A DNA stretch of 64,000 nt, from the NCBI RefSeq assembly GCF_026151205.1, contig NC_087073.1:11997578-12061577 (forward strand), read 5' to 3'. Below, one piece after another: positions 26,223 to 49,299 of the stretch. The position numbers and the translations under genes were made by a program. Under the pieces are notes generated by a model that did no database searches, was not told where the DNA came from, and saw only the letters and a list, made by a program, of their open reading frames with translations. The first letter of the stretch is position 1. Every line of letters starts with the position of its first letter. The DNA comes from Bolinopsis microptera (Eukaryota > Ctenophora > Tentaculata > Lobata > Bolinopsidae).

Positions 26223-26405
26223 ACAGGAGAAGCAAAGTACAAAGACACTGCCACAAACTGCTACTAACTGCTACCAACTGCTTCAAACTGCTACTAACTG
26301 CCACTAACTGCTACAAACTGGCACTAACTGCCACAAACTGCTACTAACTGCTGCAATCGCGCCCACGCATTCGCCCGCCGTTTGCAGCAGTTTGTAGCAG
26401 TTTGT
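26223..26405. repeat. 10-bp minisatellite CTGCTACAAA/CTGCTACTAA (left half)
   Basis: Tandem variants of ctgctacaaa, ctgctactaa and ctgccactaa run up to the left end of foldback copy 1. Inverted units continue past its right end (36344–36560). The array was therefore a single locus split by the transposon, with a GC-rich core (cgcgcccacgcattcgcccg) on both sides in opposite orientation. Confidence 0.75.
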
Positions 26406-26538
26406 AGCAGTCAGTAGGGCCTGTCGTGATATCATGGATCGCTTAGGTTCCACCAGGATCTGGTAGTCCTCATAATTCTGCGGCCTCTATGTGTCATCTC
26501 GCACAACTCCGAAAAACCGTTGTGAGTTTGGCATGTGA

Positions 26539-27345
26539 TAGCCTCCTATATATAGCCTCCAAATTGTGGAATAGCATACATAAACGGATTCTAAATGAGA
26601 ATGGGGAAATCCTCACTACTTCTGTAGCTTTGGTTAAATTACGCTGTAAAAGTATCATCCTGGGATCTCAATCCATCAACAATAATAACACCTGGACTTA
26701 CCACAACTTTCACATTGCCCCTCACTCAATCACAGACCAAACCATTTCATCACTCACTCACCAAATTGCCGACCCAATATCTATTGAAGTGGCGAAAATT
26801 TTCTAGACAAATGATATTTCGATATTATTGCTGCAGCAGATACAAATACCAACATTATTATATTCCCAAACGTTTGAACCTTTAAATTAACTAGGAAAGT
26901 CAATCCTCAACTTGACTTTTACTGTTTCAAACAGATATGATGATATTAACTTAATTTATTATTATTATTATTATTATTTTTTTTTACATACTCCTTCTTA
27001 GTGTGGTGACTTGGGGTCCATAAATATAACAATACAAGCTGATAAACCAAAAAGAACAACTGGGGTAGGTAGGTAGCCCTGGTGGGTGCGTAAACTTTAC
27101 GGTCTGCTCTCTCCAAGATCAGCCTGCTTCTCCATTTTACCGTGAAGCCTAATTTCTAGTTTTTATAAAATATACAATGCAAGTGCAGGTTTACTAATCT
27201 TAATCTACTTAACTACTCAATAGCCCAAGTCACCATACCCGTAGTATATTCCATGGTAATAGAAGAGCTTTAAAGTTTTTCAAATTGTTGCTATAATTGA
27301 TTTAAATAAAAATTTGTTGTTTTCTTGAAAAATTTGTTGTTTTCT
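26539..27345 (+). mobile_element. LINE 3' fragment inserted in left foldback arm
   Basis: The insertion splits the arm and duplicates TGTGA (26534–26538, 27346–27350). It opens with a coding relic, IASKLWNSIHKRIL…SQSINNNN, running to 26806. This resembles the last residues of LINE reverse transcriptase proteins. It continues with a (TTA)n run at 26956–26980. Assignment to a clade is not possible by eye. Confidence 0.5.
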
Positions 27346-28322
27346 TGTGAAAATTTGCAGCCTTCCAGACATCGATTGGGTTAACGAGTTGTCGTACGTC
27401 ACCTCAAGATCGGGTGACAGGGGGCTGAACAGGCCAGAACCCAATTGATTGGGTCTGAGGTCACGTGATTATGAGCCTGAGGTCACGTGACTATGACGTC
27501 ACCAGAGCTCGTTCTCCGTTTCCCGCTCTTTGGACCAGGTGAGCTTGCATGCATGTGAAAGTGGGTGTAAGTACAGCTGTACTGTAGTTACATCCAATTA
27601 CCCCTAATAGAACGAAGATTTATTTTCTGACAGAAAGCTAGAAATTTACCAAAATATCGACTTTGTTCAAAATTTATTTTGATGACCACTCCTGACCTAA
27701 AATTGCACGAGAAATCGATTAAACTTGGTTTCAGAACTCAACAATGCTTCCTTATGCCTTAAAATCCATGTTTTATCGATACAATAAACATTTTGATCCT
27801 GTGGATTAATTAGTAACAGGTAACAAATGCACAGAAAAAACCATCACACTTACATTGCATTCTTAACGGATCGATTTCGAGTGACCAATAATCGTCGTGA
27901 TGATATTTATACGTCATGCGTTCCTGATCATCATCAGCAATCAAGAGACAGGAGCAGCGGTTGCTTCAAATCAATGGTTTACGTTATTTTTGTGAATTCG
28001 ACCCCTGTTTTAACGGTTATCAGACTTTGTAATTGAATGTATTGAGGATATCTTTACAAATAAGAGGACCAGTAAATAAAATTGCCACAAGTGTTTCTCT
28101 CACTCACTTTCGATAAGACACAATGAAAATTCTTACTTAACCATAAGATTCGGAATTTTTCAACCGTTGAAGAATATCGGAATTTTATAAAATCTAATCA
28201 CACTTATCAACCTTTGAACGGTTAATCGAAAAAGTGTGAATGATACCGCTGCAATTGTCTTATCAGTTATATGTATAAAACCTTGCGTTAGGTGGCAGTT
28301 AAATGAGGAATGAGTTGTTAGA

Positions 28323-28718
28323 ATGACGCGACGGTTATTTCCAATGATATCTTTGTATTGTATTGCAATTTGTGCAATTTCAGTTGGGCAGCTTTTTAAA
28401 GTGTCTGTTTTTTCAATTTTCGTAAACCTACTACCTAGGAATTTTTTGAATTTTAAAATCCGGCAATCCGATCCCCGGATATTATTTGAAGTCTTTTAAA
28501 TTTGATTGAATGATGAATTTCAGCCGATGATGAACAAGATGTGCGGAGGGAGGGTGTGGCCGATTGTCTGAAAATCCTTGACTGGGAGGAGAAGGTACCA
28601 CCCTCCCGACGTGTGAGGGTTTTTTACAAGCCAGATTTGAACATGACCGCAAGGAAGTTCACCGAGCTCCCCATCTATAAGGAGGATTCTTGTGGATGGT
28701 GGTTTAAAACGGGAGTTG
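28323..28718 (+). pseudogene. Exon-like coding segment in the core of foldback copy 1
   Basis: The open segment 28524–28718 is bounded by tttcag and |gtaata and encodes DVRREGVADCLKILDWEE, SRRVRVFYKPDLNMT and YKEDSCGWWFKTGV. Codon use and composition look protein-coding. A separate ATG at 28323 starts a hydrophobic, signal-like stretch (MISLYCIAICAIS). The two do not join in phase by any donor I can find, so the gene is probably broken or the first exon lies elsewhere. I do not recognise the family. It lies between the inverted arms, the position of transposon cargo. Confidence 0.4.
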
Positions 28719-31437
28719 GTAATAATAATTATTTTAAATATACCTTTTTTGCATAATTTATATCATATGTTAACGAGCTTAATCAATCATTTATTCAACA
28801 TATTATACTCGTACTAATGTGTTCGAGTTAAGTTATAGTTGCTTCAGTCTCAGTACATGATTTAAATACAAAATAACACAATTATCCTCAGCAAAGAAGG
28901 AGTATGCTCGGGTAACCCTACCCCCCTTGCTACATGGTCTGACGAGAGCCGCTATCATCTCCTATATAAGAATGCCTCTCAAAACGGTATTTGTCAACAA
29001 CAATTAAGCCGTTGAGAGGCAAGTGGCTCTTATGTCAACCTGTGGTAAGAAAGTGGTAGGGGAGGATAGGAAGTCTGGGCAACAAATTGCTGTCGCAGAG
29101 CACAGACAGGAAACGAAAAAGCAGAAGAACTAACTGCTGATGGAATTTCATACGATTCGTTGATTTTTTGTAAAAATTGAACTAACATTTTATAAAATTC
29201 CGATATTCTTCAACGGTTGAAAAATTCCGAATCTTATGGTTAAGTAAGAATTTTCATTGTGTCTTATCGAAAGTGAGTGAGGGAAACACTTGTGGCAATT
29301 TTATTTACTGGTGCTCTTATTTGTAAAGATATCCTTAATACATTCAATTACAAAGTCTGATAACCGTTAAAACAGGGGTCGAATTCACAAAAATAACGTA
29401 AACCATTGATTTGAAGCAACCGCCGCTCCTGTCTCTTGATTGCTGATGATGATCAGGAACGCATGACGTATAAATATCATCACGACGATTATTGGTCACT
29501 CGAAATCGATCCGTTAAGAATGCAATGTAAGTGCGATGGTTTTTTTTTTGTGCATTTGTTACCTGTTACTAATTAATCCACAGGATCAAAATGTTTATTG
29601 TATCGATAAAACATGGATTTTAAGGCATAAGGAAGCATTGTTGAGTTCTGAAACCAAGTTTAATCGATTTCTCGTGCAATTTTAGGTCAGGAGTGGTCAT
29701 CAAAATAAATTTTGAACAAAGTCGATATTTTGGTAAATTTCTAGCTTTCTGTCACACTGCCGCGCGCAGTGTTGTGACCCCTCTTCGTCGTATTTTACAA
29801 ATATTTGGACGTTGGCAATTTATTCAATTGATAATTTTAAAGTTTTAACATTTTTAATATTAAATTCTTTTTTAATATAGTTCTAAAACAATTAAACTTG
29901 CTTTCTGTGAAAATTTAATGTACTTTCGTAAAATAATTTTGATGTGGCAGCGATTTGAAAAAAAAATTAGTTAAAAATGATACAAAAAAATTGGACATTT
30001 TTTTATATTAAAACATGTATAACTTGGGCTGTGTTGACAGTAGAAAAATAATTTAACCCTTGTCCGAAAGGTTTACAAAAGTTTTACGCGCCGCGCATAA
30101 TTGCCGCGCAATTTCGCGTGTCAAATCCGTCTAAGAGTGAACATAATTGATGAAGGAGCACTTTGACCTTTACACCTCGTGCGTTCACTGTTCGCGTTTT
30201 AATTGCGCCCAGTTCACTGTTGCCTCGCGTTATTCCATCATCCATATTTCTGCTCTTAGTTGCTTTATAATGTGTCATCAGTAATCAGCCCTGCTGTATT
30301 ATATATTGTGCTTGATTGTTGATACCTAATTAATTAACTGTTTACGATGGCAGTTATGGTGGATGATGATTAATCACTCTACAATCGCCTGTCACGTGAC
30401 TTCTTCAACCCGTTCTGTAGATGGCCCTAAACAACTATTCGAAACCCGGAAACCATAACCCTTTAATCAGATCCCAACCCTAACGGCATAACCCTAACCA
30501 AATCCTTTACAAAAGCATATACTGAAACACTATAGAGAAATTAGGCTAACTTCCTTATACGGTCATATCACGTGATCGAGACAGTTTTTCGCCAATATCT
30601 CGTTAGGGGAGAATTTTAATCTTATGTCATGGGGGTAATAGGTAAGTACTTAGTAACCTCTTTGCTTTTATTCGAGCCTTTTATTAAATCGAAGTTACAG
30701 TTCACGAGGTTGATCCTTTGGGAGATATTAAATCCTTTTTTACTATTATTTATAAATTCTAACGTTTAACTTTAATAATAATAAGTAAGTTTGGACGCAG
30801 ACTAGAAACGAGTTTAATCGACTAAGTTTTTGATTTTGTGTACCTTTTTATCATACAACTTTTTAATTTCAGCAAATTTTAGTTAAAGAGTAAACCAAAG
30901 TTAGCAATCATTGAACTCAATAGTTAAAAAGGTGACTGTAAAAATAGAACTAAGATTTCGATACTTTTAAATGAACTTCTAGTTCTAATGATATAATTTT
31001 AAATTATTAGATGTTTAAATTTTCCTGATAGCTGGATCATAGTCATGTAGAAATTAGGTTAAACATTGTCATGCAGAAATTAGGTTGAAATAATTTTGTC
31101 CATAGAAAACACAGTCACGCCTTACATTATTACAAGCTTTAAAGGGCTCGTGAGTCGTGTTAGTGTTACTATTACTTTTGAGCTTGAAAGCAGACAAAAC
31201 TTTGCTTATTTGTTTGTTTATTATTTTGTTTGTTATTAGAGAAAGAAGACAATATTACCTCTCGATTATTTCAGGAGAAGCTAAAAGCGCTGAAAGATCA
31301 AGAAGCATCTCCCGCAGGAGCTGTTGAATCAGCACGCTGAAGAAGTACAGAGACTGGTGAACAAGCTGATAAACTCAGACAGCAGCAAAAACTTCAAGTG
31401 AGCTTCGTGACGTCATTGACATTACCGTCGTTGTGAC

Positions 31438-32356
31438 CAAGGGTCGACCGAGTCCTCGGCCTCGGTTTTACCGAGGAATGGCGATTTTTCCTCGGCCTCG
31501 GTCAGGAGGACAATTCCTCGGTTCGCCTCGGCCTCGGTCAAAAATAGATTCGAAATTCCTCGGCCTCGGCGAAATTTGACGATTTTACCGAGGATTTGAC
31601 CGAGGATTTTTGTTGAAATTTTGGGAATTTTTCTACAGACTTACAGAGGTTAATGTAAACGAATTTGTAAAATTGAAAATAAAACGACCAATTGACCAGG
31701 ACACAAAACTAAAAATATCATAGTCTAAGATTCATCGTCTGATGAAATGACAATATCTGAGCACTCTGAATCAGAATAATCTTCTGTGCACAGCTCTGCA
31801 GAAGGGGGACAGTCCTCTTTATTTGGGGCTTCAAATTCATTTGGACAGGGGCCGAAGTCGTCCCCAAATGTTCCGATGTTCTTTTTGAGAAACAAGCACC
31901 CCTCAAAGTTTGTTGGCTTAAGGCTGAGGCGATTTAACTTCAGGATGTGCCCTGCTGTAGAAAACAATCTCTCTGGTGCTGCTGAGCTCGCCGGCGCAGA
32001 TAGATATTTCCTTGAACACTCAGCAAGGTTCGGATAGCTCTGCTTATTAGCTTTCCAGTAAACTAATGGTTGAAATGATAAATCAACTCGAGAGTCTAAC
32101 GTGTGTACACAGTATAGTACACAGTACAATCTGATTAGGTACAGTGCGCTTTTCCTAATAAACAATGCCCTTTTTCCCAACAATTTTTCTGCCAAAATTC
32201 CTCGGCCTCGGCCTCGGTCAAAATTTGCACTCCTCGGCCTCGGCCTCGGCCTCGGTCAAAAAAAGAAACCTCGGTTGTCCTCGGCCTCGGTCTTAACTAA
32301 CTGTATTTTCCTCGGCCTCGGCCTCGGTCGAAAATCCTGCCCTCGGTCGACCCCTG
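31438..32356 (-). mobile_element. Non-autonomous hAT element with transposase C-terminus
   Basis: The ends CAAGGGTCGACCGAG and (inverted) CAGGGGTCGACCGAG are flanked by a perfect 8-bp duplication GTTGTGAC (31430–31437, 32357–32364), the hAT hallmark. On the minus strand, codons within 32195–31725 encode the hAT dimerisation region: YPNLAECSRKYLSAPASSAA, PERLFSTAGHILKLNRLSL and FLKKNIG. The upstream catalytic part is gone. Subterminal (CCTCGG)n-type repeats occupy both ends (31465–31580, 32197–32345). Confidence 0.9.
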
Positions 32357-33744
32357 GTTGTGACGTCATTTTCGATGTTGATCGAATGAATTTATTTGTA
32401 TTCTAGAGATTCTATTTTAGCATTTGACAAGTTACAACTTTGGCTCTGTTTACTGTGCTGTAATGCACTGAACGACCGGGATTCCCGGCGCCGGGGGAGG
32501 TGTTTATTCCCGGCCCCGGCCAATTTTGAGTTTTTGGCCGGGAATTATAGATTAAAAAGTCAAATAAGAACATAAAAACTACTGTCTTATTTGACCCACA
32601 ATTCATACTTACATTTACAACTTATCTTATATTGGTAAGGGATCAATTAGCCGAAGTTAAAATGGAAAGTGCCAGTTTTACTTTAAAGTCTGAAGCACTG
32701 AGCGTGAAAAGTGATATTAAAATGGACTCTAAAAGTGCCTGTGTCTTCATACTATGGTGTTCCGCCTCACTTCTATACTACTATAATCGAGCACAGGACT
32801 TGACAAGCTCCCACTAAAACAAGTTGTGTAAAAAATACCACCAGTTCACGGCCCAACCACATTGTTTATTTGTACACCCAGTGAATTATTCCTTATATGG
32901 CGCGGAACATTCCTGGCCTAACGTGTGTGCCTTGTTTCTCCGCACTATCAGTTGACTACCATTCATGTAGTTGACTGCCACCATGTACTCGCATTTATGT
33001 GTTACTTTTTTTTACGTGTTTGATTTAAATTGCTCGTGATTAGACACACGTTCGGTGAAAGCGGAGGGGATAGTTTTCACTTTTCAGACAAGGGAAGGGG
33101 CAAGGAAACGTGTGATTACTTGATTATTGATTTTTCACGTTTTAAGTTAATCTCGACACGTGTTCAGTAATTATGTGTTTTATAAATACCCTACCATGTT
33201 TACACTTTTTAAATCCCTTTAAAGCCAACAATATAATCCACAAAACAGACTCCTGGCACTAATTTCAGGATCTAAAATAGGCCCGGGCTTTTTTTAAAGT
33301 TACTGACATGACGCTGGTCCTCACTTTTTGGAGTCTACTCCCTCATTTCCAGGTTAGTGCACTATTAGTGGGGAGGAGGTGTATTAACTTTATCAGTCAC
33401 GTAACCTCATGACACTCCCCATCACGGGTAACTTGTAATGGTAACGTTGTCATGGTAACAGAAATGTGTTTTCAGGCTGAACAGGAAGCTGTACAACAAC
33501 CGGTCTGACAAGTTACAAGTGGTGGACCTACATCATCTAGATGTACAGGTTCGTTCATTTACTGATTGATAGCTATTTTAATGAACTTATTTGTTTAGAT
33601 TTATGACGTGTTTCTCAATTGACAATTTTATACCCTCGAGATAATACAAAATTCTATGAAGGATACATGTTTAATGTTCAATTACATAAATGACAAACTT
33701 AAGTTGACTAAATCGCTGCCTGTATTTGGATTATTTAAAAAAAA

Positions 33745-34275
33745 TCAATTTGGTGTGACCACAGTACCATAAGTCGCACTGAGCATAAAACCTGTGAGCG
33801 AATCACCATACTTAAAGAGTGTGTGCCAGCTCATGTCCGTCTTCATAACCTCTTCCCTCCACTGTCCCCATCTTGACTGCATCTCAAGAGAGCCGCATTG
33901 AACTTCACTTTCATGCTCGAGGTTTCTTTTAACTCTCTGAAGGACCTCAGCTTGTTGTTCCCGGGCGTTCATCTTCTTCCACGGTTTCTTCCATTCTCCA
34001 AAACCAATCCTTGCCCTGCTGTACGGCTGGACCATTCCTCTCACCGCTTCACAGACTAAGTCCCTCTCAGCACAATCTAGTTCCTTGTCTGGTCTCCAAA
34101 CTCTCCCTGACCTGACTTGCGGTTGAATTGCCCTTATCATGTCATCAAAAAACTGCTGGTAGGACTGTTGGAGTCGACATTTCTCCAGCTTCCAAGTATC
34201 GGACAGGCTGCCGATGGGCAAGGCCACACTAGATGTTTGACTAAATAAGCAGATGTTACTCAGTTTGACCCACAT
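33745..34275 (-). pseudogene. LINE protein linker fragment
   Basis: A 176-codon frame reads DTWKLEKCRLQQSYQQFFDD, RSGRVWRPDKELDCAERDL, QSRWGQWREEVMKTDMSWHT and FMLSATYGTVVTPN. This is the style of the segment between the reverse transcriptase and the C-terminal nuclease in LINE-like proteins of marine invertebrates (recalled, unsearched). No catalytic motif remains; it is a fragment within the 6.2-kb TIR element. Confidence 0.5.
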
Positions 34276-34848
34276 GTGAAGGTCGCTAAACTAAATGTAA
34301 TATTTCAGGTACAAATTCTACTAGTACGATTCGATGCAGTGGAAGAGGTTGAAGTTGACGTTTAAGCAGTCACCCTGCCGAACAAGAAATCAGTCAGGCA
34401 AAGAGGCTAGGTTGACCAGAAACTCAATCACTATATCCGTGAAACTTGCTGGAAGCTATGTGAGTTATTTTACCTCCTTATTTCAAATGACCTCCAAACC
34501 AATTACATTGAACTTTGAAGAGGTGAAGAAACCATTAATATTTACTGAATTAAATGCGACTATAAAACCGAAATAGTAATACACTGCTGACTACAAAGAA
34601 ACATCTTACATGGGGCCAGGCTCATATAAGTGTTCATATGTTAGTGTTCATAGCCGTTGAAAATATGGCGGAATGACAGGCTGAATGTGGCCCAGTAGAA
34701 GAAAAAAACATTATAATTCTTTCCGACCATAATAGAAATACAATTAAACTAGAATGAAACAAAGAGTATTAAATTTCTAAATTAGTCGAGTCAACCAAAT
34801 TTCACAGAGAAGCTGGACATTTATACGACAATTTAAACGCAATGTGTA

Positions 34849-34909
34849 TGCGCCGTGATCAATGGTCACGGCGCAGAACCATTGCGCCGTGACCGTTGAT
34901 CACGGCGCA
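34849..34909. repeat. GC-rich hairpin
   Basis: Two 27-nt arms (tgcgccgtgatca…cacggcgca) are inverted copies with one mismatch around a 7-nt loop. This is striking in an AT-rich setting. Confidence 0.85.
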
Positions 34910-36586
34910 TAACCCGTAAGATGCTGCGCACATTTTTGATTTTAAAATGGCGGGAACACATTTCAACTGCCATTGTTATACGATACATTGAAGTGCATAG
35001 TGGAGTGTGTGGTCTGATAGCAGACAGAGGATTTATTTGAAACATTCCCGGTGCCTTCAACTGTTCTTTGCACTGACTATTTGATTGCTTAAACGAGTAG
35101 GCGAGCCTTCAAAAACATTAGTTTTCATAGTTTTATGATGCAAATATGATTTTTCCATTTACTTAACTGATAATACCCCCAATATCTTTTCAGGTGTGGA
35201 GGTCGGACCGAAACTGTAATCAGACACTAAACATTAACGAGGACCAATTATTTTACTCCCTTAATGATGAATAAAGATCGCTGATTGCTTTTACTAATAT
35301 ATAGTGTTAAAATGAAAGAGAAACTGTTGAGACGAAAGAGAAAAACGCACTCATTTATTTATAGTTTTATGTCTTAACAATGTTATTCGAAAGCTAATTT
35401 TAAAAGCTGGCTCTGAATCCTTGCTAAATGATTTGGGAAGGTGTAAGGGCTAAATATGCCTGTAGACATCATTTTCAGTGGGTTTTATGAAGTTTATGAT
35501 TAGGGTATATTTTGGGACTGAAATAAGCGCAAGACCTTCGACGTTTCTATTCCTACTGTTTTTTTAATTTAGCAAATATACAAAAAAAAATTATACTGTC
35601 GTAAAGATAAAATGTTTAGTTATCGGATAGATACTTTAAAATTAAGTATTAAAATAACCGAGCTAAGATATTCAATGTTAAACTCAAAAATGTTCACGCG
35701 TTTATGAAGAAATATCTAATTCTGCGCGTAGTTTTTTGGTCACAACTATGGCAAATTTTTACCAATTTTGTTCATAATTTCAAAATGTTATTTAGTAGAC
35801 AAATTACTTTCGGACTAAATCCTTATTGTTTATTCAAATCTAAAAGAAACAACATTTATTTGACTTCAAAATTGTTCAATCTGAATACGAGCTAATTACG
35901 ACGAAGGGAGGTCACAACACTGCGCGCAGGAGTGTGTCAGAAAATAAATCTTCGTTCTATTAGGGGTAATTGGATGTAACTACAGTACAGCTGTACTTAC
36001 ACCCACTTTCACATGCATGCAAGCTCACCTGGTCCAAAGAGCGGGAAACGGAGAACGAGCTCTGGTGACGTCATAGTCACGTGACCTCAGGCTCATAATC
36101 ACGTGACCTCAGACCCAATCAATTGGGTTCTGGCCTGTTCAGCCCCCTGTCACCCGATCTTGAGGTGACGTACGACAACTCGTTAACCCAATCGATGTCT
36201 GGAAGGCTGCAAATTTTCACATGCCAAACTCACAACGGTTTTTCAGAGTTGTGCGAGATGACGACACATAGAGGCCGCAGAATTATGAGGATTACCAGAT
36301 CCTGGTGGAACCTAAGCGATCCATGATTTCACGACAGGCCCTAAGCAGTCAGTGCCAGTTTGTAGCAGTTAGTGCCAGTTTGTAGCAGTTTGTAGCAGTT
36401 GCGCGCGTGTGTCTTTACTGCGCAACGCAACGCACGCCGCTGTGAACTAACTGCTGCAAACGGCGCGAATGCGTGGGCGCGATTGCAGCAGTTAGTAGCA
36501 GTTTGTGCCAGTTAGTGCCAGTTTGTAGCAGTTAGTAGCAGTTTGTGGCAGTTTCTTTGCACTTTGCTCCTCCTGTGAGGGGCGCC

Positions 36587-37197
36587 AAATTACAACGTTA
36601 TGCCACTGCAAGCTTTTGGGTCGTTCACATATTACGTTATCAATATTTTGCTAAAAAACTATGTTTATGCTGAAAACCGAAGTTTAGTTATAAATATTGC
36701 CATAAATTGGTATAGATTTAAAAAAATGCTTTTGCAAATTTCTTCGAAATAATAATTGCTTCAGGGTAATATAAGTATTGCAGTCACATTAATATTATCT
36801 TCATTAATATTATCTTCAATTGGTGTGTCTATAAAAACAGAGCCTTAAATCCCAAGTAAAATTTTTAAAAGAGAGAAGTATATCTGAAAATTCAAAGAAA
36901 ATAAATATAAGGGATTCAACACAACTGAAAATTTATGTAGCGCTCGATTTTACAGTGCGGCATTAATCAGTCGAAATACAAAATAGGCGCGCGGCGCGTC
37001 AATTAAAATATGCGCGGCGCGTATCAATAAAAACGAAAAACAGTAATCACGCAGAATTATTAAGCTCTTACATCTATAATTCAATAAATTACAATTACAT
37101 ATGATTAAGGGAAAATAAAATACAACTTTTTTCATCGAAAACGTTTTTCATTTCTCATTGATGATTATATAATAAAATCGTGAATCGGTTAAAGTGA

Positions 37198-37230
<33 letters not shown>

Positions 37231-37380
37231 TTTTTTGTCACATGAAAATTAATGTGCTTTTATTGATGCTTTCATTGACGCTTTTATTTCATTAGTGTGG
37301 TGATTGATTCCGGCTCTGAGGATTAAAAGAGTACTTAATTTTTAGTCCTAAAACATGAAACATGAACAGTCCAATGTGCT
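36587..37380. other. AT-rich spacer with C28 tract
   Basis: I find no exons. A run of 28 C residues occupies 37200–37227. A block rich in GCGCG lies near 36985–37025. Confidence 0.4.
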
Positions 37381-37384
37381 TAAA

Positions 37385-40360
37385 ACTTAAACTTTGAACA
37401 CTGTCGACTATGGAAGCGCATGTGTGTCAAAAAAAATAATGATACACATGCGCTTCCTAGGTAGCGTATGTGTGTCAAAACATTTTTTGATACACATGCG
37501 CTAGCAGGTTTATCATGTATATCATTAGGTGGCCCATGTGTGTCATTTTTGTAAAATTGCTGTAAAATCTCTATTTAATATTCTAATCGCTATCTTTATC
37601 TATTTATATATGTATTTTATCCTTATCTCTATTTTATCTTTAAACTCCTCTCCGCTCGCCTCCCGTGTGAAACGAGCGCGCCTGCACGCTGCAGTGGCGC
37701 GAAAGCACATGGTTAGGTTAAAGCGCGTGTACTGTTGCTGCACAGGCTATAATGTTAATTGACGATGTCAATTCATCGCAGCTCGGCGAGGCACAGTAGC
37801 GCATTTCACCGATTTAGCGTTGCAAGAAGCATAATCAATAATTGAATGCGCGGCGCGGCACAGTAACCAGTAACGCATCGTGCTACAAGCTATAATATTT
37901 AAAAACATACTCATTGGAGAATGGAGCTATGGAGGAATGAAGCTGCCTGCTGCGCGTGCGGTAGAATGACAGGCTGAGCGCCGCCAAGTATTGCATATTG
38001 AAGCGTGTACGCCGACGAATGACAGGCGAGCTCCTGTGTCCTGGGATCGTGCGCGAAGATCGAAATGCAATTCATGTATCAAGCCAACTGCCAAGTGCCA
38101 ACAACAATGTGTTTATTGTTATAAATGATAATGGACTAACCCGTTTCGGGATACTTCGTAGCAACTAGCAAGCTTGCCGCGCATCGATCCAATAATGCTT
38201 CTCGTCGTAAGTGGTAAGGCGGCCAATTTGATTTGTTTCAATTGTTCGAATTATAATGCTCCTGCTTAACTGCAGTCGAGCACTCTCTTTGGGAAACCAA
38301 ACAACAACTATTTATTATATAATATATATGTATGTATAGACGCTTTGGCAGTCAATTGTAGCCTACATTTAAGTGTCCGTATATCCAAAAGTATAAATAA
38401 GCTTTATTACAATTCGTAAGCCGTGAATGAATGGGAAAAGCGAGCGACCGATTTCATTCTCGGTTTCAATTTGCATTAGCGGACGGTTCCTCAAATTAAT
38501 ATCATTTCCTTTTGTTTGGAAAAGAGAGACACTGGCAGTGGTACACTCTACCCATGATTATGGGTTTTGGTCAAATTAATATAATGATTTATTTTATAAG
38601 GTTACTTATGAATTTATTCGAGAAATAATCTGGAAGTATTATCGGCATCTTTTCACACATATATGACTACGAGTTACTTCCGCGTAACTATACTTGAACC
38701 CTTTAAGTAATAAGTTGAACTACAGGATCGAGATGTTGATTGTATCGATAAAACATGGATTTTGAGGCATAAGGAAGCATTGTTGAGTTCTGAAACCAAG
38801 TTTAATCGATTTCTCGTGCGATTTTAGGTCAGGAATGGTCATCAAAATAAATTTAAAACAATGACGATATTTTGGTAAATTTCTAACTTTCTGCCAGAAG
38901 ATAAATTTTCGGTTTCTATAGCGGTTTAATTAGGTATAAACTACAGTACAGCTATTCTTACACCCACATTCACATGCATGCAAGCTCACCTGGTCCAATG
39001 AGCGGGAAACGGAGAGGAAGGTCTGGTGACGTCATAGTCACGTGACCTCAGGCTCATAATCACGTGACCTCAGACCCAATCAATTGGGTTCTGGCCTGGT
39101 CAGCCCCCTGTCACCCGATCTTGAGGTGACGTACGACCACTCGTTAACCCAATCAATGTCTGGAAGGCTGCAAATTTTCACATGCCAAATCCACAAGATT
39201 CTTAAAGAGTTGTGCGAGATGACAAAACATAGAGGCCGCAGAATTATGAGGACTACCAGATCCTGGTGGAACCTAAGCGATCCATGATATCACGACAGGC
39301 CCTAGGTAAGGCCACCTTGTTTGTCGTTAGACATAGGCAAAATGCACCCAGCACCCCTGCGGACCTCGCTGAGCTGCTATGCAAAGTGAAAAAGCAACAA
39401 CTCAATGGATGGTTAGTGGTTACCCGTACCGTAATGGGTGCTACATGCCTAGCATGAAATATTTACTTACTTACTTGTGCACTTAATTTGTGTATTATAT
39501 GTTCATAATGATATAAATTCGGCGGAATGACAGGCTTGAGGCTGAGCGCGGCCCAGTAAACTTCGAATCGAAAAAATTAAACGAGTTACATCCGTCAACA
39601 AATAGTTATATGTAATAATTAAAAACAAACTTTGCTTGTTTACCTGAACTTAGAATTTTATACAATTAATGTAAGATTAAAATCGTGTTTTTACCAATTT
39701 CCCTGCACCATCCGGTAAATTTATTACCCTCAGCCCTTAGTTGTGGGCTGCGCGGTCGTATCGCGGCTTTCGCCTCGGTATAGCGGGGGCGAAATGAAAT
39801 ACAAATGAGGATCGCGACGCGTGACTTGTAGGTTTATAATCTACCAGGACGCGCGCCGAGTTGGACTCGTCGACGGTCCTGATTAATATTTGAAGCAAAT
39901 ATTTTACGACTACAAGTATCACCCGTTAAAGAAAGGATTGGAAATTGAACTCGCCGGTACGTCGACGGATGATGCTTGTCTAAATTTGTTCGAAGTAACA
40001 CGAAAAACTTTCTTTTCGAAGCGAAATGTCTGTGTTACACTTACTGGGCGGCGCTCAGCCTGTGCTTTTTCAATGTCATTCCGCAACCATTTATCATTTA
40101 CGAACGAATAAAAACAACGTCAATATTTTACATGTCACAGTTAGCTGGCAGTACGGCCCAGTTAATAAATTGTGCATCGCGCCGATCTAGCAAAAAACAT
40201 TATTTGATGCGCTGATCAGTCTTCTAAGACTAATAATATAAAACATTGTTTCTTTTGTCCGTAATTGCCTGTACTGCGTGAGAATTACAAAATAATTACA
40301 GCAAATTTACAAAATAAGAATAATGAAAAAGTAAACGTGTTTTCTCGGTTATAATTCATA
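37385..40360. repeat. Left arm of large inverted-repeat cluster
   Basis: 37385–37990 is the inverted copy of about 48430–49020. 39310–40320 is the inverted copy of about 47325–48270. Shared landmarks include gcatgtgtgtcaaaa hairpins, GGCGGAATGACAGGCTGAG with GCGGCCCAGTAA, and an AACGGGTGATAC block. 38000–38720 and the partial foldback arm at 38723–39304 are unique to this side. Short frames repeated on both sides (for example 37529–37762 and 48895–48662) are copies of repeat DNA, not supported genes. Confidence 0.75.
38723..39304 (-). mobile_element. Solo foldback arm (copy 3, partial)
   Basis: This matches the right arms of copies 1 and 2, from tattgtatcgataaaacatgg to the terminal GGCCCTA. 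It is more diverged (for example aggaaggtctgg for acgagctctgg). No partner arm with the opposite end is present, so it is a truncated relic. Confidence 0.75.
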
Positions 40361-42239
40361 ATTATTTTAGAATAACGCTTTATTGTTAATGCAATCATAG
40401 TGGTCAGCTTGTGACATGGCTATGACGCCTTTTTCTTATAGGGCCTGTCGTGATATCATGGATCGCTTAGGTTCCACCAGGATCTGGTAGTCCTCATAAT
40501 TCTGCGGCCTCTATGTGTCTTCATCTCGCACAACTCCGAAAAACCGTTGTGAGTTTGGCATGTGAAAATTTGCAGCCCTCCAGACATCGATTGGGTTAAC
40601 GAGTTGTCGTACGTCACCTCAAGATCGGGTGACAGGGGGCTGAACAGGCCAGAACCCAATTGATTGGGTCTGAGGTCACGTGATTATGAGCCTGAGGTCA
40701 CGTGACTATGACGTCACCAGAGCTCGTTCTCCGTTTCCCGCTCTTTGGACCAGGTGAGCTTGCATGCTTGTGAAAGTGGGTGTAAGTACAGCTGTACTGT
40801 AGTTACATCCAATTACCCCTAATAGAATGAAGATTTATTTTCTGACAGAAAGCTAGAAATTCACCAAAATATCGACTTTGTTCAAAATTTATTTTGATGA
40901 TCACTCCTAACCTAAAATTGCACGAGAAATCGATTAAACTTGGTTTCAGAACTCAACAATGCTTCCTTATGCCTTAACTTAGTTTCGAGATAGCAGTCAG
41001 TAAACCAACAAACTAGGACCGGTGACCGAACTTTTGAGGGGGTCCCGGACCCCAACCGCCAAACGGTGCCCGCGGGGCAGCCACGCCCATATTTGGTCCA
41101 AATCAGGCCCAATTAAGCCAAATACCCTTAACATGCCCAAAACCCAAATTTTAGGTGCTCTTTTTGTAGCTAGTGGTCCCTTGAACTCGTATATGAATTT
41201 TCATCAAGATTGGACAAAAAATGACTGAGTTATGAGCCAAAAACCATATGACCATATTTGGGCATACGCACCAAATTTGATCGATTTTGGCCCATAAATT
41301 GGTCAAATATCAATATTTTTGAATGAAACCAACTTTATATGGAAGGTAAGCCTATACTACACATTCTCTATGATTATCAGCTCAATATCTACCTAACTGT
41401 GGATTCTGTGTTCAAATAGTTGCAAAAAATGAACAAAATCGCCCATATATCAGTTCGCGATATTTGCAAAACTGACTTCGCTCAAAACAATAGAACTCAA
41501 TAGGGTTTCAATATTTTTTCATGAAATTTTCAGAATCGACGTAGAATCGCCTCATGACCTTAAGTTTTGTATTAGAATTTTAAGTTAGGCCTTTAACAAA
41601 ATTTGGCGGCCAAATTCTGAAAAATGCCCGATATTCTTCAACGGTTGAAAAATTCCGAATCGTATGGTTAAGTAAGAATTTTCATTGTGTCTTATCGAAA
41701 GTGAATGAGAGAAACACTTGTGACAATTTTATTTACTGGTCCTCTTATTTGTAAAGCTATCCTGAAGCTCTGCGCTCTTTTCCTTCTCTCATCCTGCCAG
41801 CTCTTCTACACAGCAGTTATTGTGAGAATTACGACGTGGCTGCGTTTGTTGTCCAGCAAGTAAGTTTAAAGTTATGGTTGTTAAATATCCTTGAACTTCT
41901 ATGTCCTATGATCTTGCCAAAGGCGTAGATATAGCGCGCATACGCCTACCGTATGGGTCACGAAATCCTCTCCGAACCTCCACGTGGTGTGGCCTGGTTG
42001 GCACTAACGGGTGGTGTGCTCTCTTGTTGAGTACTAAGGTTGGGACTTGCCAACTCAAAGTTCCCATGGGAACCAGGAAGTCAACAATAACAGCTACCAA
42101 GCACCAGGAAATTTCTCTTTCAGATATCAGGTTACAAGATAGTACACACACAAATGACGATACGTTAGACACAGATACCTAGCTCTAAGAGCTATTAAAT
42201 CACCAGGAAATTCTCTTTCAGCTTTCAGGTCCCATCGAA

Positions 42240-42500
42240 GTCACCCACCACAGAGCTAGGGATTCCAATTCGCTCATCCTGACTACAAGGACACACTGAT
42301 AATGAGTAGTCTTGGCACTTCCTCCCTCCAGTAACCACTTTTCAGGTCTTTTCAGTTAAGACAGCTAATGCGTAAGGGCTGACACACGCTAGACACAGGC
42401 TCGTGATAAGACAAAATTAGGAATTTCAACTCTGACTACGAGAACACACTGATAACGAGAATTCCTGGAACTTCTTCCTCCAGTAACCACTTTTCAGGGG
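42240..42500. repeat. Imperfect direct duplication, ~165 bp apart
   Basis: The segment around 42260–42350 (ctgactacaaggacacactg, ccagtaaccacttttcagg) recurs at 42430–42500. It lies in the interior of foldback copy 2 with no recognised coding function. Confidence 0.6.
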
Positions 42501-42959
42501 ACCGGGTTAGCTTTGCCACACTCTTTATTGAAGTGTGACTGGACGCTCTACAATCATCTAGTAGCAGCAGAGTTTGACTGACATCCTTACTGGTTCTATT
42601 CAAGTATTCAGTTTCTACAGCGGAAGTTCTCAACACTCGAATCAGTTCATCTCGGACATCCTGCAGAGATGCTTTATCACAGCCTGCCCCATACACGGGG
42701 AACCCTTAGATCTACAGTACCCTGGTGGACAGCTTAGCTCTTTAAGCATAGTGGACCTCTTTAGTTCTGAGACGCAAAGCTAACCGGACCAGGAATAAAC
42801 ATCAATGCAATGCTTAGGGGATGCAAATAGGACATACAACGTTTAACGATTTACTCGAACTTTTGATTCATTTTTAAGCTCGACGTTACATGGTATCAAT
42901 TCAGGACAGATATTCCTTCTTCAGGTTCATTGAGGAAATCGTACCCGCTATTTGCGTTA

Positions 42960-43600
42960 TACATGGCAAGTTTCTGGACTAATGATAACTTAGGATCTCA
43001 ATCAATCATAAATTCCTCTCAGATTCCCAGGCTGCATTTAAAGCCCTTAACAGCACCAATTTTAACTCCAGGTTCGTTCTGAACATCTCAGACCAACTCA
43101 ACTCGCTAGGTTTTCGCATCGAGTAGAACTTTGTTCCAGGACATGAAGGAGTATACGGTAAAGAACTATAATCAACACCCAAATAAAAGATTACCTCTTC
43201 AATCTCCATATCAAGAAGTATAAACAGGTGGCACTCAGTGATAAAGGAAAAACCCCACTAACATTTTTCCTCAACAAAAACAGGTACAAGAAAATTAACA
43301 TCACAGGCACTCACATCAGATGGCTAACATGGCTACTATCAGGACACAGCCCACTAGCATACTTCCAGACGGTAGCAAACAATTTCGAAACACAAGACTG
43401 TGAACACTGCCCAGGGGAAGCAGAAACATCACAACACTTCCTATGTGAATGCATCCAGCTGATGACAACTAGAATGAGGATATTTGGTAAACCCATCCTA
43501 ACAATTGAGGAACTCATCAATAGTAAACTCGACCACATTATCAAATTCGTGGAACAGTCAACAAGGTTTGACAGAGACGATCTATTTGGATAAGCATCTA
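42960..43600 (+). pseudogene. LINE RNase H and zinc-knuckle C-terminus
   Basis: First comes an RNase H-like strip: SDSQAAFKALNSTN, then NFVPGHEGVYG, with a TAG at 43123–43125 just before the VPGH motif where Trp is usual. From 43228 a second frame gives RYKKINITGTHIRWLTWLLS and a C–x2–C…H–x4–C cluster (CEHCPGEAETSQHFLCEC). This is the usual order at the end of RNase H-bearing LINEs. It is broken by stop and frame change. Nearby frames between 41900 and 42780 are unrecognised. Confidence 0.75.
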
Positions 43601-45510
43601 GGACATACACCAAGGTTCATAAACAATCATACACTAGACCCACACAGGACTATCCCAGATAGTGACACATATTCAGGTGTGGACCATGCTCGGAAGTCCC
43701 TCGCCTGCCCGCCAAAGAAGAACATCTGAAGTGGGTTTGCTCTGAGCAAGGTAGTAACAGCTTCGAGACTCCAGAGGTCTGTTGCGTTGATATCTATTTT
43801 TCTATGTTTTTGTATATACTTAGGGAGTCCTGGAGTGTGGCTAGCAGGAGTCACACTCTGTGGGCACGGCGAGAAGGCCTCCCTCTTCACTAGGAGGCCA
43901 GAAACCGTTGACCAAAACAGAGAGAGAGAGAGACGCCTACCGTATGATCAGCTGATTGTCGAGACCTCAAAAAGAAATAACAGTCAACCAAATCTGACTG
44001 AGAAAAACTCGACTACATAGAGCAACTGCAAGGGTGGTGTCTAATTGGTGCGCGTTGGTAGTAATAAAGTTTTGACACATGTCCCTAAAGCGATTTCATT
44101 TAATGAAGTTTTAATCGAAAGCAAGTCGACCACAAAGAATTACTTAACTCAGGCATGAAGCAATTCGTAACTCAAACTGAGAAATATGCCCGCACGTGCC
44201 ACGTTTGTATACTGACCAGTCCACCACAAATGAACACATAAAAGGTGATCTGAAATTGAAACTAGTTTGATTTGCAATCTCTCGGTTCAACAGAAATGGC
44301 GGTCTCGTGATATAAGTTGTTCCGTGCAAAGCACAATTGAACTGCTTCCCGAATCCAACTATAATGAAGTATTTAAACTTGGTCCGTAGTCTTCGTGGAA
44401 TTTGGATAGATCTTTATAATTCAATTCGTGGTGGTCCCGTGACCTGTCAAAATGGGTTAGACGGGTTCCTGCTAGTAGACTTGAACCTGTCGACCATACG
44501 ATTCGTTGATTTTTTGTAAAAATTGAACTTACATTTTATAAAATGCCGATATTCTTCAAATGTTGAAAAATTCCGAATCTTATGGTTAAGTAAGAATTTA
44601 GAATTTTCATTGTGTCTTATCGAAAGTGAATGAGAGAAACACTTGTGACAATTTTATTTACTGGTCCTCTTATTTGTAAAGCTATCGTCAATACATTCAA
44701 TGACAAAGTGTGATAACCGTTAAAACAGGGGTCGAATTCACAAAAATAACGTAAACCGTTGATTTAAAGCAATCGCCGCTCCTGTCTCTTGATTGCTGAT
44801 GATGATCAGGAACGCATGACGTATAAATATCATCACGACGATTATTGGTCACTCGAAATCGACCCGTTAAGAATGCAATGTAAGTGCGATCGATGGTTTT
44901 TTTGTGCATTTGTTACCTGTTACTAATTAATCCACAGGATCAAAATGTTTATTGTATCGATAAAAATGGAATTTAAGGCATAAGGAAGCATTGTTGAGTT
45001 CTGAAACCAAGTTTAATCGATTTCTCGTGCAATTTTTGGTCAGGAGTGTTCATCAAAATAAATTTTGAACTAAGTCGATATTTTGGTAAATTTCTAGCTT
45101 TCTGTCAGAAAATAAATCTTCATTCTATTAGGGGTAATTGGATGTAACTACAGTACAGCTGTACTTACACCAACTTTCACAAGCATGCAAGCTCACCTGG
45201 TCCAAAGAGCGGGAAACGGAGAACGAGCTCTGGTGACGTCATAGTCACGTGACCTCAGGCTCATAATCACGTGACCTCAGACCCAATCAATTGGGTTCTG
45301 GCCTGTTCAGCCCCCTGTCACCCGATCTTGAGGTGACGTACGACAACTCGTTAACCCAATCGATGTCTGGAAATTTCACATGCCAAACTCACAACGGTTT
45401 TTCGGAGTTGTGCGAGATGACGACACATAGAGGCCGCAGAATTATGAGGACTACCAGATCCTGGTGGAACCTAAGCGATCCATGATATCACGACAGGCCC
45501 TATTTTTCTT

Positions 45511-47118
45511 ACATGGTTATGACATGGTTATGACATGGTTATGACATAGTTATGACATGGTTATGACATGGTTATGACATGGTTATGACATGGTTATGAC
45601 ATGGTTATGACATGGTTATGACATGGTTATGACATGGTTATGACATGGTTATGACATGGTTATGACATGGTTATGACATGGTTATGACATGGTTACAACC
45701 AAAACTCCTTCAGACCAATTTTGAACCATTATGAGCACTTTCAGGATACAATTCATTTCCGTTCATTTCCGTTCATTCTATGAACCTGGGTCATTTGGTG
45801 CGACATTCGATGACCTCTAGGCCTAGCTTATATTATGACACTATCTATCATAGAAAACCGAATTGGGAGTTCCCAGCCCTTACGTAATAAGTCTCAAATT
45901 GAAATGACACACATGCGCCACCTATTGATTTACATGATAAACCTGCTAGCGCATGTGTGTCAAAAACAAAAGTGACAGACATGCGCTAGCAGGTTTATCA
46001 TGTAAATCAATAGGTGGCGCATGTGTGTCATTTCAATTTGAGACTTATTACGTAAGGGCTGGGAACCCCCAATTCGGTTTTCTATGATAGATAGTGTCAT
46101 AAGCTAGGCCTAGAGGTCATTAAAAGTCGCACAAAATGACCCAGGTTCATAGAATGAACGGATATGAACGGAAATGAACGGAAATGAATTGTATCCCAAA
46201 ATTGCTCATAATGGTTCAAAATTGGTTATGACATGGTTATGACATGGTTATGACATGGTTATGACATGGTTATGACATGGTTACAACCAAAACTCCTTCA
46301 GACCAATTTTGAACCATTATGAGCACTTTCAGGATACAATTCATTTCCGTTCATTTCCGTTCATTCTATGAACCTGGGTCATTTTGTGCGACTTTCGATG
46401 ACCTCTAGGCCTAGCTTATGACACTATCTATCATAGAAAACCGAATTGGGGGTTCCCAGCCCTTACGTAATAAGTCTCAAATTAAAATGACACACATGCG
46501 CCACCTATTGATTTACATGATAAACCTGCTAGCGCATGTGTGTCAAAAACAAAAGTGACAGACATGCGCTAGCAGGTTTATCATGTAAATCAATAGGTGG
46601 CGCATGTGTGTCATTTAAATTTGAGACTTATTACGTAAGGGCTGGGAACCCCCAATTCGGTTTTCTATGATAGATAGTGTCATAAGCTAGGCCTAGAGGT
46701 CATCGAAAGTCGCACAAAATGACCCAGGTTCATAGAATGAACGGAATTGAACGGAAATGAATTGTATCCCAAAATTGCTCATAATGGTTCAAAATTGAAT
46801 TATAACCGAGAAAACACGTTTACTTTTTCATTATTCTTATTTTGTAATACAAAATAAGAATAATGAAAAAGTAAACGTGTTTTCTCGGTTATAATTCATA
46901 ATTATTTTAGAATAACGCTTTATTGTTAATGCAATCATAGTGGTCAGCTTGTGACATGGCTATGACGCCTTTTTCTTACATGGTTATGACATGGTTATGA
47001 CATGGTTATGACATGGTTATGACATGGTTATGACATAGTTATGACATGGTTATGACATGGTTATGACATGGTTATGACATGGTTATGACATGGTTATGAC
47101 ATGGTTATGACATGGTTA
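45511..47118. repeat. 11-bp minisatellite and tandem ~0.5-kb palindromes
   Basis: Units of acatggttatg are tandemly repeated at 45511–45694, 46224–46284 and 46978–47118. Between them lie two palindromes (about 45712–46226 and 46301–46800), spaced 588 bp apart. Each has arms of roughly 250 bp that are nearly perfect inverted copies around a short aaaaacaaaag loop. A further perfect hairpin with arms of about 50 nt is at 46797–46905. The set is non-coding. Confidence 0.9.
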
Positions 47119-47324
47119 TCCCTGATGATTGGATATGCTTCAGATTTTTCGGACACCTTCCTTGTAAGTCTTTTAATAATCTTACCAATTTTTGTTGCAA
47201 TCAGAGGTCGGGAAGGATAGTAAATATCTATTTGAATGAAGAAAATTGTGCTGGCCGAAATAAGCGCTAAAAAACCATCTTACAGTCAGTTCGCGCGGCT
47301 CACTGTAGATGGCGCACGACCTAT

Positions 47325-49020
47325 TTGTAAATGTGCTGTAATTATTTTGTAATTCTCACGCAGTACAGGCAATTACGGACAAAAGAAACAATGTTTTATA
47401 TTATTAGTCTTAGAAGATTGATCAGCGCATCAAATAATGTTTTTTGCTAGATCGGCGCGATGCACAATTTATTAACTGGGCCGTACTGCCAGCTAACTGT
47501 GACATGTAAAATATTGACGTTGTTTTTATTTGTTCGTAAATGATAAATGGTTGCGGAATGACATTGAAAAAGCACAGGCTGAGCGCCGCCCAGTAACACA
47601 GACATTTCGCTTCGAAAAGAAAGTTTTTCGTGTTACTTCGAACAAATTTAGACAAGCATCATCCGTCGACGTACCGGCGAGTTCAATTTCCAATCCTTTC
47701 TTTAACGGGTGATACTTGTAGTCGTAAAATATTTGCTTCAAATATTAATCAGGACCGTCGACGAGTCCAACTCGGCGCGCGTCCTGGTAGGTTATAAACC
47801 TACAAGTCACGCGTCGCGATCCTCATTTGTATTTCATTTCGCCCCCGCTATACCGTGGCGAAAGCCACGATACGACCGCCCAGCCCACGACTAAGGGCTG
47901 AGGGTAATAAATTTACCGGATGGTGCAGGGAAATTGGTAAAAACACGACTTTAATCTTACATTAATTGTATAAAATTCTAAGTTCAGGTAAACAAGCAAA
48001 GTTTGTTTTTAATTATTACATATAACTATTTGTTGACGGATGTTACTCGTTTAATTTTTTCGATTCGAAGTTTACTGGGCCGCGCTCAGCCTCAAGCCTG
48101 TCATTCCGCCGAATTTATATCATTATGAACATATAATACACAAATTAAGTGCACAAGTAAGTAAGTAAATATTTCATGCTAGGCATGTAGCACCCATTAC
48201 GGTACGGGTAACCACTAACCATCCATTGAGTTGTTGCTTTTTCACTTTGCATAGCAGCTCAGCGAGGTCCGCATTACCTGAGGACCCCTTGTATCACGTG
48301 GTGACCCCCACGGTCGCTTCACTATAGTGGCCCCCTGTAGAGTCTTCGACGATACAGGGGAGCCGCGCACTTCGTGCGCGGCGGGTCATACAACGTATGA
48401 CAAAGGACCCCAGGCTATTATGTTCATTAACATATATAACGAATAAAGATTTGGCGGAATGACAGGCTGAGCGCGGCCCAGTAACATTCCTCCATAGCTC
48501 CATTCTCCAATGAGTATGTTTTTAAATATTATAGCTTGTAGCACGATGCGTTACTGGTTACTGTGCCGCGCCGCGCATTCAATTATTGATTATGCTTCTT
48601 GCAACGCTAAATCGGTGAAATGCGCTACTGTGCCTCGCCGAGCTGCGATGAATTGACATCGTCAATTAACATTATAGCCTGTGCAGCAACAGTACACGCG
48701 CTTTAACCTAACCATGTGCTTTCGCGCCACTGCAGCGTGCAGGCGCGCTCGTTTCACACGGGAGGCGAGCGGAGAGGAGTTTAAAGATAAAATAGAGATA
48801 AGGATAAAATACATATATAAATAGATAAAGATAGCGATTAGAATATTAAATAGAGATTTTACAGCAATTTTACAAAAATGACACACATGGGCCACCTAAT
48901 GATATACATGATAAAACTGCTAGCGCATGTGTATCAAAAAATGTTTTGACACACATACGCTACCTAGGAAGCGCATGTGTATCATTATTTTTTTTGACAC
49001 ACATGCGCTTCCATAGTCGA
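47325..49020. repeat. Right arm of large inverted-repeat cluster
   Basis: Inverted copy of the left-arm segments 39310–40320 and 37385–37990, joined here by a 160-bp insert (48273–48430). The insert contains a ccgcgcacttcgtgcgcgg hairpin. There is no coding support. Confidence 0.75.
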
Positions 49021-49030
49021 CTCTTTTTTT

Positions 49031-49246
49031 AACGGGTGATACTCGTAAAATATTTGTTCCATATATTGGGCAGGACCGTCGACGAGTCCAACTCGGCGCG
49101 CGTCCTGGTAGGTTGCAAACCTACAACATTTTTTTGTAGGTTTATAACCTACCTAACCAGGACTCGCGCCGAGTTGGACTTGTCGATGAGTTGGACTCGT
49201 CGACGATCCTGAATATTAAAAAAATATTTTCCGAGTATCACCCGTT
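49031..49246. mobile_element. Hairpin MITE with AACGGGTGATAC ends
   Basis: The sequence folds back on itself nearly end to end: AACGGGTGATACTCG at the left, its inverted copy at the right, and gtaggttgcaaacctac / gtaggtttataacctac at the centre. The same module appears inside the inverted-repeat arms at 39830–39970 and 47690–47800. No target duplication is obvious. Confidence 0.7.
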
Positions 49247-49299
49247 AAACTCTTTTGTAAGTGAAATTGTTATTATATATTAATGTTGACCATTGTTAA

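Follow-up and report, generated by a model that had tools for sequence, protein, structure and literature searches.

Two long inverted repeats in a 64,000-nucleotide stretch of the Bolinopsis microptera genome (contig NC_087073.1, positions 11,997,578 to 12,061,577; hereafter the window, numbered from its first letter) raise three questions: whether they were inserted by transposition, which kind of transposase would have moved them, and where the DNA between their arms came from. Here, both are found to be independent insertions of one arm family. We consider it likely that they are non-autonomous foldback transposons of a Mutator-like element (MULE) family in an animal genome.

Insertion sites of the two complete copies

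The window was searched for the 15-bp end sequence TAGGGCCTGTCGTGA with up to 3 mismatches, and 100 shuffles served as the background. Five matches were obtained, all of them exact (26415+, 36343-, 39304-, 40439+, and 45502-), compared with a shuffle mean of 0.75 and a maximum of 4; beyond these five, no more such ends were found in the window. Four of them pair to give two complete elements, copy 1 and copy 2, and the fifth (39304) is the solo right end of a third copy, which was absent from the initial annotation.

26415..36343, unstranded: copy 1, complete element, 9,929 bp as present, ~2.9 kb without later insertions
40439..45502, unstranded: copy 2, complete element, 5,064 bp
38722..39304, minus strand: copy 3, solo right end, 89.8-91.6% identity with the other four arms
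26406..26414, plus strand: copy 1 left target duplication AGCAGTCAG, perfect 9 bp
36344..36352, plus strand: copy 1 right target duplication AGCAGTCAG, perfect 9 bp
40430..40438, plus strand: copy 2 left target duplication TTTTTCTTA, perfect 9 bp
45503..45511, plus strand: copy 2 right target duplication TTTTTCTTA, perfect 9 bp
46848..47119, plus strand: copy 2 empty site, with a single TTTTTCTTA at 46970-46978

The probability that two 9-mers drawn at random from the window agree is 3e-5. Each copy was nevertheless tested separately, because 9-mers from the arrays on either side of copy 1, which have a 10-bp unit, agree often (probability of 0.0026) and TTTTTCTTA is not rare (5 occurrences in the window versus 2.5 expected). 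When the flanks of copy 1 were joined with one duplication, 17 of 20 bases matched at lag 20 and 6 of 10 at lag 10 across the junction, compared with 1/20 and 0/10 when both duplications were kept and 6/20 and 4/10 when neither was. Once copy 1 and one duplication are removed, the repeats of the surrounding array are back in register.

For copy 2, the joined flanks and the empty site, 1.5 kb away, agree at 270 of 272 bases; the two mismatches lie within the 11-bp array. This site looks like a paralogous stretch of the same complex repeat locus and not an allele, because its neighborhood differs on both sides. Alternative borders at GGGCC...GGCCC with a longer duplication were ruled out, since the empty site puts TA inside the element. 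For copy 3, no second occurrence of the 9-bp flank GGTAAGGCC was found within the window, and the flank on its one side is not a tandem array. The initial annotation had described a single family with shared TAGGGCC...GGCCCTA ends, two complete insertions, 9-bp target duplications at each, and an empty site for copy 2 nearby, and all of this held up.

Arms, centers, and coding content

Copy 1 spans 9.9 kb because of two later insertions, of 807 bp and 6,180 bp, the larger of which contains a third.

26415..26538, plus strand: copy 1 left arm, outer part (arm alignment)
26539..27345, unstranded: later insertion in the left arm, 807 bp, 5-bp duplication TGTGA at 26534-26538 and 27346-27350
27346..28197, plus strand: copy 1 left arm, inner part, whose first 5 bases are the duplication
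28198..29148, unstranded: copy 1 center, 951 bp, unmatched elsewhere in the window
29149..29754, minus strand: copy 1 right arm, inner part (arm alignment)
29755..35934, unstranded: later insertion in the right arm, 6,180 bp, 5-bp duplication TGTCA at 29750-29754 and 35935-35939
31438..32356, unstranded: hAT derivative within the 6,180-bp insertion, 919 bp, 8-bp duplication GTTGTGAC at 31430-31437 and 32357-32364
35940..36343, minus strand: copy 1 right arm, outer part (arm alignment)

The bulk of the DNA between the ends of copy 1 is not a center carried by the arms, and the two later insertions account for 6,987 of its 9,929 bases. At the point equivalent to the 807-bp insertion, the other arms continue uninterrupted. 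Without both insertions and their duplications, copy 1 measures ~2.93 kb, with a left arm of 971 bp, a right arm of 1,010 bp, and a center of 951 bp. The 6,180-bp insertion ends in CACTG...GAGTG, with 25-bp inverted repeats (2 mismatches), and a six-frame scan of copy 1 gave no transposase domain of its own; we take its ends and its TGTCA duplication to recall Transib or Chapaev elements. The nested hAT derivative carries a hAT dimerization domain (Pfam E of 1.6e-18 for the open reading frame [ORF] and 6e-17 for the frame). At 33477-33548, a short stretch resembling an exon was provisionally taken as Smr-like; it had no Pfam match, and this identification was dropped.

Copy 2 has unequal arms and an additional arm fragment in its interior.

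40439..40977, plus strand: copy 2 left arm, 539 bp, shorter than the right arm
40978..41620, unstranded: copy 2 center, first part (comparison of centers)
41621..41766, minus strand: stray inner right-arm piece, 146 bp, inside copy 2 and oriented as the right arm
41767..44494, unstranded: copy 2 center, main part, with possible (weak) retrotransposon remnants
44495..45502, minus strand: copy 2 right arm, 1,008 bp (arm alignment)

In aligned columns 128-560, the two arms of copy 1 are identical (288/288 and 140/140, together 428/428), and either of them is 97.1-99.0% identical to the copy 2 arms. In the inner part, the copy 1 arms are alike at 415 of 423 positions, compared with 404/423 and 439/459 against the right arm of copy 2. 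Within the outer 128 columns, the copy 1 arms agree at 117 of 120 positions, and the left arm of copy 1 agrees with the right arm of copy 2 at 120 of 120. The copy 2 arms match each other at 526/538, and the left arms of the two copies match at 533/544. Two of these results count against homogenization of the arms: the outermost 120 columns of copy 1 are less alike than the remainder and also less alike than the left arm of copy 1 and the right arm of copy 2 are there, and the copy 2 arms resemble each other no more than they resemble those of copy 1.

The centers of copies 1 and 2 share no sequence beyond chance (best E of 0.40). Thus, the earlier claim that they differ completely stands for what remains of them, while most of the copy 1 interior, which had been counted as center, consists of later insertions. 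The accompanying proposal that the arms mobilize unrelated DNA agrees with the unrelated centers, but it generalizes from two centers with no donor in the window. It may instead be that no varied cargo was captured and that a single ancestral center was altered by later insertions and deletions, a possibility that we take seriously without favoring it. Nesting of insertions is frequent here: two entered copy 1, one of them with a third inside, and the copy 2 center holds the stray arm piece and possible retrotransposon remnants; against this, the remaining 951-bp center of copy 1 shares nothing with that of copy 2, as judged without a systematic search of the centers for insertion borders.

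The copy 1 center contains an open stretch at 28524-28718, preceded by AG and followed by GT, which looks like a captured exon and is treated as a candidate. It had no significant PDB or Pfam match and no relative in the window (best other E of 0.35). Readings of this stretch as FXR1 (PDB E of 1.2) or CFAP107 (E of 0.41) were rejected, neither being significant. A nearby FXR donor, the KH-domain stretch at 11205-11543, was also dropped, its best PDB likenesses being hnRNP K and PCBP at a nonsignificant E of at least 0.29. In the copy 2 center, the ORF at 43162-43590 gave zf-RVT (E of 0.024) when scanned singly, a match that is under the Pfam cutoff and was not listed for the whole frame; this ORF may be a retrotransposon remnant.

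A transposase of the family was looked for in six frames of copy 1, with stops read as X, and in six frames of the copy 2 center, at an E threshold of 0.05. The only domain in copy 1 was that of the nested hAT, no domain was found in the copy 2 center, and neither gave a MULE-domain transposase, in accordance with the initial description of both copies as lacking a transposase. In addition, 20 of the 23 ORFs of at least 110 amino acids were scanned (the remaining three lie in copy 1 and are covered by its frames), together with six frames of 36344-38714, four of the six of 47100-49300, and three frames in each of two further regions, 13100-16100 and 52000-55600. A loose threshold was used for ten pieces taken from the elements and their inserts. 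No MULE domain was found in these ORF, frame, and piece scans, whose coverage is smaller than that of a full six-frame scan of the window. The frames of 36344-38714 and 47100-49300 gave one match, HepT-like, with an E of 0.028, under the cutoff.

Both complete insertions lie in or at minisatellite arrays, with a 10-bp unit for copy 1 and an 11-bp unit for copy 2. This 2-of-2 count suggests a target preference, although two cases prove nothing; the cited part of PMC4486113 describes a MULE family of plants whose targets are TA microsatellites. The array hosting copy 1 has inverted flanks (26285-26395 versus 36446-36554, 94%), and copy 1 therefore probably sits inside another foldback-like repeat. 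It is doubtful that a single new family of animal MULE foldbacks combines a preference for short-unit minisatellites (in them or at their edge) inside foldback-like repeats with arms that are kept alike by conversion and with the capture of a spliced host gene fragment.

The locus that hosts copy 2 forms one large inverted repeat (37403-49021), which contains 11-bp ACATGGTTATG arrays. The inverted blocks around the element are 37403-37939/48485-49021 (99.8%) and 39358-40313/47324-48273 (98.3%). Two 51-bp arms with 100% complementarity, separated by 1 bp, occupy 46796-46898, exactly where the empty-site duplicate has its left border, and look like a fold-back copying junction. The motif GGAATGACAGGCTGAGCGCGGCCCAGTAA or a near variant is dispersed at 34671, 37964, 39523, and 48454, and two of these four sites are near borders of inverted-repeat blocks.

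Superfamily assignment and the surrounding window

The MULE superfamily is the best-fitting assignment, judged from the 9-bp duplication and the long arms and not from a transposase. In the cited part of PMC6446971, MULE duplications are 8-11 bp and the arms are often long. Here, 9 bp were found at both complete copies, with an empty site for one of them, and the terminal inverted repeats, which are commonly but not universally long in MULEs, reach ~1 kb in copy 1 and 539 and 1,008 bp in copy 2. The copies fall into the foldback class by structure, with long inverted arms that enclose a middle domain of variable sequence. Foldback shape alone names no superfamily, because Galileo is a P element whereas FARE and Tm1 are MULE-type (PMC3169594, in the part cited). 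The initial Mutator-like assignment is thus kept as the best fit by duplication length and long arms, with the qualification that six-frame scans of copy 1 and the copy 2 center found no transposase of the family and that the shape is not confined to one superfamily.

Several points weigh against our interpretation. The lack of a transposase leaves the superfamily unproved, and with only two complete insertions the family could tend to 8 or 10 bp. Within the window, neither center has a donor, as capture of host DNA would lead one to look for. A tandem-repeat scan of the arms gave only a 22-bp unit in 1.9 copies. The sole comparison with named elements was a literature text search with pieces of the terminal sequence, for which the matches listed were unrelated papers.

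Alternatively, the copies could be foldback elements from a different cut-and-paste superfamily that duplicates 8-9 bp (an unusual hAT, Merlin, or a P/Galileo-like element) and be moved by the transposase of that superfamily. The repeated origin of the foldback shape, Galileo being a P element (PMC3169594, as excerpted), and the failure of the six-frame scans of copy 1 and the copy 2 center to find the family's transposase are in keeping with such an origin. We consider it unlikely, given 9 bp at both copies, the borders of copy 2 fixed by the empty site, and the nested hAT here, which duplicates 8 bp. Usual duplications are 8 bp for hAT, 7 bp for Galileo, and 8-9 bp for Merlin, which is thus compatible by length. 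Segmental inverted duplication or assembly error in place of transposition, to which the repeat-rich locus and the 99.8% and 98.3% inverted blocks around copy 2 would lend themselves, is highly improbable, as the same arm ends are flanked by exact 9-bp duplications at two unrelated sites, precisely the element is missing from the empty site, and the copy 1 array regains its register upon removal with one duplication.

For MULE-type foldbacks, a MULE-type transposase made elsewhere would recognize the TAGGGCC...GGCCCTA ends and act in trans. The same enzyme would excise the element and join it into a 9-bp staggered break, whatever DNA lies between the arms. The space between the arms might then be refilled during break repair or replication-fork switching, which would give differing centers; refilling of this kind has been proposed for animal Pack-TIRs in the cited part of PMC8277862.

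Elsewhere in the window, a separate foldback occupies 13108-16095, with arms of ~1,350 bp (98.3% identical), and a spacer of ~300 bp. Its ends, CAGTCAAATACGTC, are flanked by TA, which would presumably suit a long-armed Tc1/mariner-type element, and a 9-bp duplication was not observed there. Direct repeats ~1.0 kb apart (92-95%) at 52069-55555, with kringle and thrombospondin type 1 domains, are the product of tandem duplication inside one gene or a cluster of genes. Kringle, thrombospondin type 1, formin FH2, and ATG101 domains in the window point to an animal genome.

Comparison with known elements

Neither the terminal 28 bp nor a 29-mer from the inner arm nor the 11-bp array was found in exact scans of viral contigs, and the 29-mer was likewise absent from an exact scan of prokaryotic genome contigs; with collections of viruses and prokaryotes, these negatives carry little weight. 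In literature on MULEs in molluscs, no nearer relative was found among the matches listed.

The comparisons below refer to the cited parts of the sources. Drosophila FB4 resembles the present copies in being non-autonomous and in having been assigned to MULEs, without a known transposase, from duplications of 9-10 bp and arms of ~700 bp; the Ssk-FB4 Pack-MULE also has foreign DNA between its arms (PMC8277862). The donor of that cargo is known, in contrast to the donor here, and the likeness is one of description. Tetris of Drosophila virilis is likewise a foldback, assigned to Mutator by the length of its duplications, 8-10 bp; three of its copies are structurally complete, it lacks conserved ORFs, and a search for an autonomous partner found none (PMC4079207). 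It differs in the ~220-bp tandem repeats of its arms, of which the tandem-repeat scan found none such here.

Muta1 of Aedes aegypti and its derivatives share common ends, varied interiors, and 8-9 bp duplications, and ~20% of the derivatives are alignable to host genes; unlike the present copies, Muta1 has 145-bp arms, 12-bp subterminal repeats, a known transposase, and precise excision in yeast (PMC5225508). Tm1 of Meloidogyne also combines foldback arms, 9-bp duplications, and heterogeneous interiors, but its arms are composite with ~14-bp motifs, and its transposase, of Phantom type, is known (PMC3169594). Rehavkus, with a 9-bp duplication, arms of 26-400 bp, a minisatellite before the 3' arm, and a PHD-finger transposase (PMC6446971), is not matched: the 9 bp are shared, but the arms here are longer, and the tandem-repeat scan lists no array next to the inner end of a right arm in either copy. 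At ~1 kb, they also exceed the 14-500 bp of the elements analyzed in that source, whose table reaches 613 bp. A Pack-MULE or Pack-TIR has a host-gene interior with an identifiable donor; the interior of copy 1 holds the candidate exon at 28524-28718, for which no donor was found in the window.

The two copies provide a clean insertion pair, one with an empty site, for animal Mutator-like foldbacks, whose transposase is sometimes unknown (FB4 and Tetris). If their ends were tied to an autonomous element, two questions would become testable: whether the arms alone suffice to mobilize any DNA between them, and by what route that space is refilled. By analogy with the pattern of FB4, Tetris, the Muta derivatives, and Tm1, they look like a new family within a type of element already described in flies, mosquitoes, and nematodes.

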